Source: Cohnella abietis (lineage in GTDB: Bacteria; Bacillota; Bacilli; Paenibacillales; Paenibacillaceae). Taken from it: a DNA stretch of 64,000 nt. Every line of letters begins with the position of its first letter. Position 1 is the stretch's first letter. The notes below the pieces were generated by a model. The model was not told the DNA's origin. It saw nothing but the letters and a program-made list of their open reading frames with translations, and made no database searches. This document shows positions 2,361 through 60,870 of this stretch, piece after piece. Position numbers and translations under genes: made by a program. The DNA lies in assembly GCF_004295585.1 (NCBI RefSeq), contig NZ_AP019400.1, positions 959,501 to 1,023,500 of the forward strand, written 5' to 3'.

Positions 2361-3020
2361 ATGGCAGCTAAGCAAAAATATTACGTAGTCTGGGTCGGCA
2401 GAAAACCAGGCGTCTATACAAGCTGGGCCGACTGCCAAGAGCAGATCAATAAATTTGATGATGCTAAATTTAAGTCATACGAAACTAGGGCAGCAGCTGA
2501 TGAAGCTTATAAAGCGGGATGGAAGAAGCATTGGGGGCAAGGTCAGGGGAAAGGGAAGGTTTCTAGCGGAAGCTCCTTCAAGCCTAGCTCCTCTGGGGTA
2601 GAGACGACTGAGGAAATTGACTATAACAGTATTTCCGTCGATGTAGGGACAAGTGGTAATCCTGGTCCGGTGGAATATAAAGGCGTGGATACGCAAACGG
2701 GCGAGGTTATTTTCTCCAAGGGACCTCTTAAGAAAGGGACGAACAATCTCGGAGAGTTTCTCGCCATCGTTCACGGATTGGCGTATTTGCAAAAAATCGG
2801 AAGCAACAAAACAGTGTATAGCGACTCTGTTAACGCACTGAAGTGGGTCAAACAAAAATCGGTGTCCTCAACATTAGTTAGGGACGAGTCGACCAAGGAA
2901 ATATGGGAGCTGGTCGACCGTGCAATTGAATGGTTAAAGACCCATTCTTATTCGAATAAGGTCGTGAAATGGCAGACGAAGCAATGGGGTGAGATTAAGG
3001 CCGATTACGGGCGGAAATAA
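2361..3020 (+). CDS. rnhA: Ribonuclease H with N-terminal viroplasmin domain
   Basis: This 219-aa protein has two parts. Residues 1-52 form the small RNA/DNA-hybrid-binding viroplasmin (RNase HI N-terminal) domain, with YYVVWVGRKPGVYTSWADC and KSYETRAAADEAYKAG. After a Gly/Ser-rich linker (60-85), residues 88-215 form an RNase H fold. The acidic catalytic set is present: D94 (ISVDVG), E132 (NNLGEFLA), D155 (VYSDSVNA) and D215 near the C-terminus. It should cleave RNA in RNA-DNA hybrids. It lies 34 bp after map on the same strand. Confidence 0.9.
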   Translation: MAAKQKYYVVWVGRKPGVYTSWADCQEQINKFDDAKFKSYETRAAADEAYKAGWKKHWGQGQGKGKVSSGSSFKPSSSGVETTEEIDYNSISVDVGTSGNPGPVEYKGVDTQTGEVIFSKGPLKKGTNNLGEFLAIVHGLAYLQKIGSNKTVYSDSVNALKWVKQKSVSSTLVRDESTKEIWELVDRAIEWLKTHSYSNKVVKWQTKQWGEIKADYGRK

Positions 3021-3220: not shown

Positions 3221-3406
3221 TCATTTTGTTTTATAGACGACTAATATCGCACTTCTTTGATCAGTTTTGTTGGCAACGATTTGTTTGCCAATTGAACCGT
3301 AACAGATATTAATGACTTGGTCATCCTGAAGGGTAGCTAGGAATTCATTTGCTCTTTTCTCCGCTAGGGAACTGTCTGTATCTACAAACTCTTTAACTTG
3401 AACCAT
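3221..3406 (-). CDS. Cse60-like small sporulation protein
   Basis: This 61-aa protein begins MVQVKEFVDTDSSLAEKRAN and ends ILVVYKTK. The pattern of an N-terminal strand (VQVKEF), a helix and a C-terminal strand recalls the Cse60/DUF2758 family, which is forespore-expressed in Bacillus; the assignment is from memory of the family pattern. An in-frame ATG further upstream exists, but this start is chosen because GAGAGGAG lies seven bases before it. A tandem repeat array lies about 150 bp upstream. Confidence 0.6.
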   Translation of the reverse strand: MVQVKEFVDTDSSLAEKRANEFLATLQDDQVINICYGSIGKQIVANKTDQRSAILVVYKTK

Positions 3407-3549
3407 CTGCATGCTCCTCTCGCATAAATCAACAATACAGATAGCACCCCGCACATGACGCTGCGGAATGCCCATATGGGATCAACATAGCATGGAGAGC
3501 AGTAAGTGTCAACAAAAGGACGTAATAATAGGAAGAGAACGACACCTTG

Positions 3550-4275
3550 GGAGCAGATGCTCGAAAATTTCGAGCAACGGGTGTTTGGAGAGGCACGATT
3601 GGAGTTAGATGTACGATATTTTCGTGCAACAGGTGTTTGACGAGGTACGTTAGGAGTTAGATGTACGATATTTTCGAGTAACGGGTGTTTGGAGAGGCAC
3701 GTTTGGAGTTAGATGTACGAATTTTTCGAACAACGGGTGTCTGGAGAGACACGTTAGGAGTTAGATGTACGAAACTTTCGAACAACGGGTGTAGTGAGAG
3801 GCATGTTTGGAGGCAGACGTTCGATATTTTCGAGCAACAGGTGTTTGGCGAGGCACGTTTCGAGGTAGATGTACGATATTTTCGAGTAACAGGTGTTTGG
3901 CGAGGTACGTTTGGAGACAGATATACGAAATTTTCGAGTAACAGGTGTTTGGAGAGGTACGGGAGGAGTTAGATGTACGATATTTTCGAATAACAGGTGT
4001 TTGGAGAGGTACGTTAGGAGTTAGATGTACGATATTTTCGAGTAACGGGTCTCGGGAGAGGTACGTTAGGAGGCAGATGTACGATATTTTCGAGTAACAG
4101 GTGTCGGAAGAGGCACGTTAGGAGGCAGATGTACGAAATTTTCGAGTAACAGATGTTTGGAGAGGCACGACCGGAGAGAGAGGCTCGAAATTTTCGAGCA
4201 ACGGTTGTAGTGAGAGGCACGTTAGGAGGCAGATGTACGATATTTTCGAACAACGGGTCTCGGGAGAGGCACGGT
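3550..4275. repeat. Tandem array 1: 14 units, exact 52-bp period
   Basis: The core TTTTCGAGTAAC recurs at 3571, 3623, 3675, 3727, 3779, 3831, 3883, 3935, 3987, 4039, 4091, 4143, 4195 and 4247: thirteen consecutive spacings of exactly 52 bp although units differ by many substitutions. A typical unit runs from the core through AGGTGTTTGGAGAGG, ACGTTAGGAG, then TTAGATGTACGATA. In some units (about 3563 and 4175) the core is a near-perfect dyad GCTCGAAA-N-TTTCGAGC. Because 52 is not a multiple of three and few stops occur, long open frames appear on both strands, but they have no ribosome binding sites and encode only the repeat. The array sits between a terminator and the upstream side of the Cse60-like gene. 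Confidence 0.95.
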
Positions 4276-4309
4276 TAGCTACATAATGTACAATTTGCTC
4301 CCAAGGAAG

Positions 4310-4350
4310 CAAACAAGCCCCCCAGCCAAGTGTCGGGGGGCTTGTTTGTG
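4310..4350 (-). terminator. Terminator of the first sugar-importer operon
   Basis: A strong GC-rich hairpin (CAAACAAGCCCCCC paired with GGGGGGCTTGTTTG) lies just downstream of the last minus-strand permease gene and next to the end of array 1. Confidence 0.85.
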
Positions 4351-4365
4351 CTGCTAGAACTATAC

Positions 4366-5244
4366 CTATTTAAGGGAGCCTTCCGTAAGTCCGCTTACGA
4401 TGTGCTTGTGGAAAAATACATAAGCTAAGATCATCGGAATCGTGATTAGGGAAAGCGCAGAAAACAGCAACTTGTAGTTGGTCACATATCGGCTTGAGAA
4501 TGCAAGGAGACCGACAGGTAAAGTTTTAAGATCATCATTCTGAATATAGAGCATGGCGAGCAACAATTCATTCCAAGCGTTCAGCGAGGAGAAGATAGCA
4601 ACCGTAGCCAGGCCTGGCCCTAGCAAAGGAAGAATAATGCGAGTAAACAGAATGCGGTCGTTACACCCGTCAATCCGTGAGGCCTCAATCAAATCCTTAG
4701 GAATTGAGTCCAGAAAGGATTTTAACAAAAATACGGCCAAAGGCAATCCAACACCGATATACGGAAGGATAAGTCCCATATAAGAGTCTTTAAGATTTAA
4801 TCGGTCGAAAATATAGCTCTGAGCGATGAAAAAGGATTGCAGGGGCATAAACAGTCCGATGACGAAAAGCATGAGCAATCCATTGCTTCCCCGGAAACGC
4901 AGCTTGCTGAAGGAGAAGGCTGCCATACTAGCAAACAGCAAAATGAAAATGACTGTTAATGATGTGACAATGACACTATTCGTAGCGTAGGTGCTAATAT
5001 GGCCGATCTTCCAGGCGTCAACCCAGTTCTGAAAGTTAATATGGTCTGGAAACTTGAACGGGCTTGTGAATATATCACGATTTTCCCGGAAGGAGGACAG
5101 AACCAGCCATATCATTGGATAGAAGTAAAAACACGAGAGCACAATCATAAATCCATAATAAGAGATCCGGGACAGCCACTGAATCAAGCTATTACCGGTA
5201 TTGTTATTTTCTCTGTCTTTTGCGCTTAAAGCGGCAGCCGCCAT
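4366..5244 (-). CDS. Sugar ABC importer permease, MalG type
   Basis: This 292-aa inner-membrane protein has six predicted membrane segments and the cytoplasmic EAA loop of binding-protein-dependent permeases (EASRIDGCNDRILFTRIILP), which contacts the ATPase. The first 25 residues are polar, then the first membrane helix begins. ATG at 5244 is chosen because AGAGGTG sits about seven bases upstream; an upstream in-frame GTG lacks a site. It is the third gene of the order binding protein, MalF-type permease, MalG-type permease. No ATPase gene accompanies it. Confidence 0.9.
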   Translation of the reverse strand: MAAAALSAKDRENNNTGNSLIQWLSRISYYGFMIVLSCFYFYPMIWLVLSSFRENRDIFTSPFKFPDHINFQNWVDAWKIGHISTYATNSVIVTSLTVIFILLFASMAAFSFSKLRFRGSNGLLMLFVIGLFMPLQSFFIAQSYIFDRLNLKDSYMGLILPYIGVGLPLAVFLLKSFLDSIPKDLIEASRIDGCNDRILFTRIILPLLGPGLATVAIFSSLNAWNELLLAMLYIQNDDLKTLPVGLLAFSSRYVTNYKLLFSALSLITIPMILAYVFFHKHIVSGLTEGSLK

Positions 5245-5289
5245 GGGTAGCACCTCTTTCTCTTTGAATCCTTACAGCATTACAGCACA

Positions 5290-21819: not shown

Positions 21820-22140
21820 TGGCACCGACTAACTCGCGCGTTAAGCGGAGGCACGGACTAATTCGAGCGTGGCAGGGTGCAGATGTGCGTAGCTGAGCGG
21901 AGATGCCGACTAACTCGAGCTTGGTATGGTGCAAAGGTGGAGAGTTAAGCGGAGTGGCCGACTAATTCGAGCTTGGTATGATGCAGATGTGGGTAGCTAA
22001 GAGGAGAAGCCGACTAATTCGATCGTGGCAGGGTGCAGATGTGGAGAGTTAAGCGGAGATGCCGACTAATTCGACGTGACAGGGTGCAGATGTGGGTATC
22101 TAAGCGGAGTGACCGACTAATTCGCGTGTGGCAGTGTGCA
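21820..22140. repeat. Tandem array 2: 52-bp units
   Basis: The core GACTAAYTCGAGC occurs at 21827 (partial unit), 21856, 21908, 21960, 22012, 22064 and 22115, giving four spacings of exactly 52 and one of 51. Between cores run GGTGCAGATGTGGAGAGTTAAGCGGAG-like sequences. It fills the gap between the end of the HEAT/cNMP gene and the terminator of the convergent membrane-protein gene. It has the same unit type as array 3. Confidence 0.93.
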
Positions 22141-22161
22141 GAGGGGAATTTTGAAATGAAG

Positions 22162-24114: not shown

Positions 24115-24718
24115 TGAGTGGTTCCGCGTACTAATTCGTGCGTGGAGGGGAGCAGAGGTAGATAGTTAAGAGGAGCCGCCGACTAATTCGAGCGTGGCAG
24201 AGTGCGAAGGTGGAGAGTTAAGAGGAGCCGCCGACTAATTCGTGGGTGGCAAGGTGCGAAGGATGAAAGTTAAGAGGAGCCGCCGACTAATTCGAGCGTG
24301 GCAAGGTGCGGAGGTGGAGAGTTAAGAGGAGATGCCGACTAATTCGAGCGTGGCAAGGTGCGAAGGTGGAGAGCTAAGAGGAGCCGCCGACTAACTCGAG
24401 CGTGACAAGGTGCGGAGGTAGATAGTTAAGAGGAGCCGCCGACTAACTCGAGCGTGACAAGGTGCGAAGGTGGAGAGTTAAGAGGAGATGCTGACTAACT
24501 CGAGCGTTGCAAGGTTCGGAGGTGGAGAGTTAAGAGGAGATGCCGACTAATTCGAGCGTGACAAGGTGCGAAGGTGCAGAGTTAAGAGGAGCCGCCGACT
24601 AATTCGAGCGTGACAAGGTGCGAAGGATGAAAGTTAAGAGGAGATGCCGACTAATTCGAGCGTGGCAAGGTGCGGAGGTGGAGAGTTAAGAGGAGATGCC
24701 GACTAATTCGAGCGCTGT
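24115..24718. repeat. Tandem array 3: 12 units, exact 52-bp period
   Basis: The core ACTAAYTCGAGCG recurs at 24130, 24182, 24234, 24286, 24338, 24390, 24442, 24494, 24546, 24598, 24650 and 24702: eleven spacings, all exactly 52 bp. Units are highly similar (AAGAGGAGCCGCCGACTAAT, then TCGAGCGTGGCAAGGTGCGA, AGGTGGAGAGTT) with two variants of the segment before the core (GCCGCCG or GATGCCG). It fills the convergent gap between the nuclease-like gene and the cyclophilin terminator. No spacers differ, so it is not a CRISPR. Confidence 0.97.
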
Positions 24719-59998: not shown

Positions 59999-60019
59999 GC
60001 ATGTTGGAACTACGATAGA

Positions 60020-60160
60020 AATTAGTTTAGAGATTACTTAGAAGCTAAGACGAAATTACTTTAGAAATTACTCGAGAAACTAAAATAGAAATTACTCTAG
60101 AAATTACTCTAGAAATTACTCTAGAAATTACTCTAGAAATTACTCTAGAAACTAAGTTGG
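60020..60160. repeat. 12-bp tandem repeat (AGAAATTACTCT)
   Basis: The 12-mer AGAAATTACTCT is repeated five times in perfect register between about 60088 and 60148, each junction making a TCTAGA, with degenerate copies on both sides. It starts about 20 bp after the topB stop and has no associated gene. Confidence 0.92.
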
Positions 60161-60172
60161 AAACCACGCTGG

Positions 60173-60399: not shown

Positions 60400-60685
60400 A
60401 GAACAATGCACTGAGGGCTACTAAGGGAGCAGAAAATCCTCATCCCGGAGGGAATAACGCACTGAGGGCTACTAAGGGAGCTGAAAACTCTCATCCCGGA
60501 GGGAATAACGCACTGAGGGCTACTAAAGGAGGCGAAAATCCTCATTCGCGGAGGATTAACGCACTGAGGGCTACTAAGGGAGGCGAAAATCCTCATCCGC
60601 GAGGGAATAACGCACTGAGGGCTACTAAGGGATCCAAAAATTCTCATCCCCGAGGAAATAACGCACTGAGGGCTACTAAGCCCGC
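60400..60685. repeat. Tandem array 4: 6 units, exact 51-bp period
   Basis: CTGAGGGCTACTAAGG occurs at 60411, 60462, 60513, 60564, 60615 and 60666, all spacings exactly 51. The intervening part (GAAAATCCTCATCCCGGAGG, then GAATAACGCA) varies more. Because 51 is a multiple of three, the minus strand reads as a 17-residue repeat (MRIFASLSSPQCVIPS-like), but no ribosome binding site or upstream promoter was seen, so it is probably non-coding. Confidence 0.93.
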
Positions 60686-60699
60686 CGAATATTCGTTCC

Positions 60700-60870
60700 C
60701 GTCCGTCTCAATTTGCCCTCATTAGTCCTCATCCGTCCTCATCCGTCCCCGTCCGTCCCAATTTGCCCTCATTAGTCCTCATCCGTTCTCCAATCCGTCT
60801 CAATCCCCTCATCCGTTCTCCAATCCGTCTCAATCCCCTCATCCGTCCTCCGAATCCCCATCCCCACAGA
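60700..60870. repeat. Pyrimidine-rich short repeats (CTCATCCGTC type)
   Basis: Variants of CCTCATCCGTC, TCCAATCCGTCTCAATCCC and CAATTTGCCCTCATTAGTCC alternate for about 160 bp. The plus strand is strongly C/T-biased with almost no G. It directly follows array 4 and precedes the IF-3-like gene. Confidence 0.8.

Follow-up and report, generated by a model that had tools for sequence, protein, structure and literature searches.

The window, that is, the whole stretch of 64,000 nucleotides analyzed here, covers positions 959501-1023500 of the 7.06-Mb single-contig genome of Cohnella abietis. Close to its beginning, an array of tandem units is flanked by the terminator of an ABC permease gene on one side and by a small Cse60-like ORF on the other, and further arrays of similar unit length were found in the same window (Table 1). 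The Cse60-like ORF is located elsewhere in relatives. A gene encoding a ParB-like protein (ParB_N and HTH_ParB) is present at 218-1348, far from the origin and 2.2 kb from the 14-unit array; its product is a possible candidate for the protein binding the dyad described below. The array upstream of infC is flanked by repeats of short units, 12/36-bp GAAATTACTCTA and 10-bp CCTCATCCGT (60008-60163 and 60694-60857); in total, repeats occupy about 0.85 kb between the topoisomerase gene and infC.

Table 1. Features of the window discussed in the text (window coordinates).
Feature	Position	Strand	Remarks
RNase H-type gene	2361..3020	+	Cauli_VI and RNase_H
Small Cse60-like ORF beside the array	3221..3409	-	20.2 bits, just below the Pfam cut-off of 20.7
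14-unit array	3550..4275	+	family A; tandem 52-bp units, single orientation
First of 14 dyad cores of the array	3556..3578	.	axis at 3567 and then at 52-bp intervals up to 4243; arms of 9 bp, centre of 5 bp
Intrinsic terminator of the permease gene	4313..4352	-	strong, -22.9 kcal/mol; between permease gene and array
ABC transporter permease gene	4366..5253	-	3' end towards the array
Second 52-bp array	21840..22144	-	family F2 (core TTAGTCGG...CTTAAC); 104-bp higher-order repeat; between convergent genes
Third 52-bp array	24130..24714	-	family F2; 11 copies; between convergent genes
51-bp array	60401..60680	+	family F1 (core AATAACGCACTGAGGGCTACTAAG); upstream of infC

In a Cohnella relative (G006), about 0.1 kb separates the stop codon of the RNase H gene from the permease end, which leaves an empty site without an array; furthermore, none of 31 Cohnella and Paenibacillus loci carried an array at the orthologous position. 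Hence, the 14-unit array either arose recently or disappeared elsewhere. In Cohnella terricola (L133, 9616-9900), a different 51-bp array directly precedes the ortholog of the RNase H gene; it lies on the side opposite to that of the 14-unit array.

The initial annotation had described 14 units with 13 exact 52-bp spacings and no indels, and this description was confirmed. TRF placed the array at 3568-4278 with a period of 52, 13.7 copies, 83% matches, 0% indels, and a score of 811. The self-match was 0.81 at an offset of 52 as compared to about 0.17-0.33 at all other offsets from 40 to 61, and a unit HMM delimited 14 units connected by 13 steps of exactly 52 bp each. The array is more regular than chance. 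In the suggested comparison of substitutions with indels, adjacent units differed by a mean of 9.3 substitutions per 52 positions at 0% indels.

Arrays were counted in a 2.444-Mb sample of the genome comprising 60 evenly spaced 20-kb tiles, 59 tiles between these, and the window, which had been picked for holding arrays and therefore slightly biases array density. When tandem arrays with 3.5 or more copies were counted, periods of 51 bp (n = 40) and 52 bp (n = 25) prevailed, followed by 50 bp (n = 2), 103 bp (n = 2, alternating 51 and 52), and 49 bp (n = 1); every other period above 20 bp occurred once. A period of 51 or 52 bp was thus found in 65 of 92 arrays, or in 65 of the 81 with a period of at least 20 bp. 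Sixty-seven arrays of period 51/52 span 33.9 kb, corresponding to 1.4% of the sample, and extrapolation to the genome gives about 190 such arrays or about 220 including irregular ones. One of the longest arrays of another period in the sample is a 60-bp repeat with 23.7 copies at genome position 4942258 (L072, 958-2377).

The arrays belong to at least six sequence families plus singletons, and each family has its own period (22/22, 16/16, 8/8 and so on). Family A occupies 40 loci, and its core pattern occurs 363 times in the genome as compared to two times for the reversed control; the F1 core is present in 179 copies. A genome-wide repeat had been considered as an alternative origin of the array, and this is what was found: its family comprises 40 loci, among about 190-220 arrays in the genome. 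Solitary cores outside arrays are few. Lone cores of F2 and A at genome positions 6889152 and 6889293 (L232, about 6627 and 6768) and 3069844 (L056, about 10944) are seeds or remnants; two of them are located directly behind intrinsic terminators. At genome position 6594840 (L086, about 6440), one F1 core lies between family-A-like half sites, CAGTTGCTCGAA and CAGTTACTCGAA, about 51 bp apart, forming a mixed unit of two families.

Unit length was also conserved beyond the 14-unit array, which supports the length conservation considered earlier. Considering all families, 578 of 623 steps were exact (93%), 41 deviated by 1 bp and four by more, so that 99.4% fell within 1 bp. The rigid period proposed earlier holds for all 13 steps of the 14-unit array but is not absolute in family A, where 320 of 361 steps measured 52 bp, 25 measured 51 bp and six 53 bp, the remainder being scattered, at 10.6 substitutions per step. 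A position of the sites on one face of the helix had been suggested from the length of 52 bp; this is close to five turns and fits, but it is insufficient alone. Arrays at periods of 41-42 or 62-63 bp, one helical turn away, were absent from the 2.444-Mb sample, and none of the 623 steps deviated by one turn. Therefore, the distance itself is fixed in addition to the phase, and pure helical phasing was rejected.

Constancy within one array is explained by in-register turnover without selection; the recurrence of 51-52 bp in unrelated families is what needs a cause. Duplication whose step is fixed near five helical turns, followed by in-register recombination that holds the length with no selection involved, is a distinctly unlikely cause. 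Higher-order periods of 104, 153, 156, and 207 bp do point to multi-unit duplication, near and distant units are almost equal in similarity, and in-register exchange alone preserves unit length; however, such a by-product predicts neither the dyad geometry shared between families nor the conserved arms described below.

The 14-unit array belongs to a known class, the only one matched in the literature searched: the Firmicute repeats of constant 52-nt size, a class which reportedly dates from an article by Subirana and Messeguer in J Bacteriol in 2020. Repeats of this class have a constant size, form several families per genome, and are particularly abundant in Paenibacillus, which belongs to the same family as Cohnella (Subirana and Messeguer, Int J Mol Sci 2021, PMC8161180). 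Those of B. coagulans are partly conserved among strains, and short sequences and their reverse often co-occur in one repeat (PMC8161180). The arrays studied here share with this class a non-coding nature, units of 51-53 nt repeated four times or more, a length that stays constant while the sequence varies, several families in each genome, and a scarcity of other repeat sizes. The class is described as largely species-specific in sequence, which applies to the F1 core, whereas the family A core extends to other Cohnella species; furthermore, unlike the repeats listed in PMC8161180, the present arrays are more numerous and have a period fixed per family. Added here are the shared odd-axis dyad, the bias towards convergent gaps, and the cross-species core, some of which the 2020 paper may mention.

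Other repeat systems show partial likeness. CRISPR loci also combine a partly palindromic core with a spacer of constant length, but here all units of an array share one linker and the period is too short; no cas families were detected among ten proteins flanking the window's arrays. Mycobacterial MIRU/VNTR loci likewise consist of tandem repeats, about 50-100 bp in size, scattered among intergenic regions; to our knowledge, a dyad and a strict length of 51-52 bp are not MIRU traits, a distinction made by description rather than by sequence.

The array had been proposed to carry a clean dyad, GCTCGAAA-N-TTTCGAGC, as expected of a protein-binding array. This dyad is present in two units only (at about 3559 and 4183); conserved instead over 389 family A units is the pattern TG..CGA-N5-TCG..CA with unpaired columns inside, which matches the 14-unit array at 3558-3578, 3662-3682, 3714-3734, and onward. 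In this corrected form the dyad supports an array of putative protein-binding sites. Of the 52 columns of the family A unit, columns 14, 16-22, and 28-36 hold most of the information, and arrays diverge from one another less in their cores (0.25) than in their linkers (0.46). Among 40 deleted bases, none was located in the arms and seven in the 5-bp centre, the others being outside the core.

A common core geometry, namely an odd-axis dyad with a 5-bp centre, was found across families. For 20 non-redundant units from Cohnella, 5.45 of 8 pairs (span 3-10) matched as compared to 4.84 ± 0.157 for shuffles (p = 3e-4), and the 10-pair span used for Bacillus (3-12) gave p = 1.3e-3. For 23 published Bacillus families, whose consensuses come from Table 1 of PMC8161180 after visual removal of redundant entries, 6.91 of 10 pairs matched as compared to 5.12 ± 0.155 (p = 3e-4, the permutation floor). 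The Cohnella signal is significant but much weaker than that of Bacillus. Even-axis and mirror controls were flat (p = 0.13 to 0.9). In Cohnella, high pairing is seen 3-6 and 8-10 positions from the axis and drops at 7; in Bacillus, it extends over positions 3-13. Choosing the best axis inflates these per-position fractions, an effect from which the permutation test is free as shuffles choose likewise. The outer core letters depend on the clade, being TTAG-like in Cohnella and TGTC-like in Bacillus, and the inner stem positions pair inside a family and differ between families. Two exceptions were noted: the dyad of one relative (L118) is strong and has an even axis, and the F1 core keeps every letter yet pairs little. 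This poor symmetry despite perfect conservation speaks against reading the arrays as rows of protein sites.

A structured transcript had been named as an alternative and found no support. Units folded no better than shuffles, with a mean z of -0.1 to -0.3. The stem showed no G-U preference, G-T mismatches amounting to 102 as compared to 135 A-C in the leading sense and to 54 as compared to 74 in the gene sense. Covariation did not exceed linkage, paired changes surpassing expectation equally whether complementary or not, and no Rfam covariance model matched within the window. An RNA hairpin was therefore rejected, and the dyad is read at the DNA level, more likely as a site for a dimer than as a hairpin in single strands. 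It is very unlikely that the arrays are transcribed to serve as sponges or to be processed into small RNAs. Small RNAs were suggested by Subirana and Messeguer next to nucleoid proteins, both as guesses, and the B. coagulans repeats are reported to be transcribed (PMC8161180); in addition, a few families do show negative folding z-scores. On the other hand, in tandem contexts the gene-sense strand folds worse than the antisense strand, the permease terminator shields the 14-unit array from the permease gene, and a terminator was detected before the array at 34% of facing gene ends.

Array placement was biased towards convergent and away from divergent gaps. Convergent gaps held 27-29 of about 74 arrays as compared to 9-12 expected from intergenic length, and divergent gaps 3-5 as compared to 16-18 (four settings of a home-made hexamer-model gene caller; p at most 5e-4). 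The median distance from an array to the facing stop codon was 114 bp. This placement fits promoter avoidance, which could be purely passive and does not prove a function. The threefold excess in convergent gaps would also be expected of bidirectional terminators or insulators against read-through between convergent genes; however, a GC hairpin with a T-run occurred in only two of 82 array entries as compared to 44% of control gene ends. Intrinsic terminators were thus rejected, and this explanation of the arrays is extremely improbable.

With respect to replication, family A showed an orientation bias of 29:11, F1 of 22:9, and a third family of roughly 16:7 (the latter two counted by hand from match lists), and several other families showed none; therefore, only a modest bias is claimed. 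Perfect replication polarity was rejected, as exact F1 cores appeared to be all co-oriented with the fork but the full F1 list is not, and gene-sense polarity was rejected for family A (7 to 9). On the leading strand, A exceeded T in 63 of 77 arrays as compared to 55% of other intergenic gaps; no bias of G over C was found in the arrays.

Relatives were compared using one genome per species. Variable unit lengths in related strains, which would have argued against conservation, did not appear: 11 of 16 arrays of at least 2.5 copies measured 51 or 52 bp. The family A core is present in six other Cohnella species, hence in seven in all, with its sequence kept and with different linkers; its period is 51 bp in G006 and 52 bp in G028 and G021, and its presence in G032, G002, and G025 was judged from pattern counts against a reversed-pattern control.

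A selfish satellite is an unlikely, though possible, origin of these arrays. The core would form a hairpin with a 5-nt loop in single-stranded DNA and be multiplied, without any host function, through replication restart or a structure-specific enzyme, with the step of 51-52 nt set by this machinery. Pairing inside families without conservation of sequence between them would also fit a hairpin, the deletions spare the arms and affect the centre and linker, G+C amounts to 51% in arrays as compared to 41% in other intergenic DNA, and the F1 core had 0 copies in 36 other Cohnella genomes. Against this, the family A core is kept in seven species, cores outside arrays are scarce, and phages and plasmids gave no match to the 14-unit array, an origin from which was rejected. 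The arrays resemble REP/BIME/REPIN elements as short imperfect dyads in many copies at gene ends; unlike these, they are tandem and in one orientation at a fixed period of 51-52, inverted unit pairs being absent from nearly all arrays and mixed-strand loci restricted to two near-palindromic patterns. Furthermore, no match to the RAYT transposase (Y1, PF01797) was obtained in the genome although positive controls matched, and RAYT-driven REP was rejected as the enzyme is absent. Five RVT_1 matches indicate reverse transcriptases in the genome; nothing links them to the arrays.

We favor the reading that the array is a satellite-like row of dyad sites for a dimeric DNA-binding protein, to which we assign a probability of roughly 0.45. 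Each unit of 51-52 bp would offer one dyad site at the DNA level, occupied by a putative dimeric protein, and adjacent dimers may contact each other or wrap the intervening DNA; we propose that this is why five-turn phase and absolute distance are both fixed. The linker sequence would be free, with core arms and spacing maintained, and in-register recombination would multiply and homogenize the units. Arrays would settle in gene-end gaps, chiefly convergent ones, where no promoter is disturbed, and would probably be architectural or insulating there. The occurrence of at least six families in one genome speaks against this reading, as it would require either several specificities or a single tolerant protein. 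By analogy, such arrays might work like eukaryotic alpha satellite with CENP-B boxes or like parS and iteron arrays, that is, as evenly spaced protein sites in homogenized repeats. A more doubtful extension is that all 51-52-bp repeats of Bacillaceae and Paenibacillaceae carry one odd-axis dyad with a 5-bp centre per five turns, read by a single, undescribed DNA-binding protein family with divergent specificities that forms a chromatin-like stepped filament.

The dyad geometry common to unrelated sequences provides a concrete handle on what reads the Firmicute 52-nt repeats: it names the part to bind (the core of 23-27 bp), the free part (the linker), and the spacing to perturb. If such a protein is found, it would be a satellite-bound component of bacterial chromatin with a logic like that of CENP-B or ParB arrays, covering about 1.4% of the genome.
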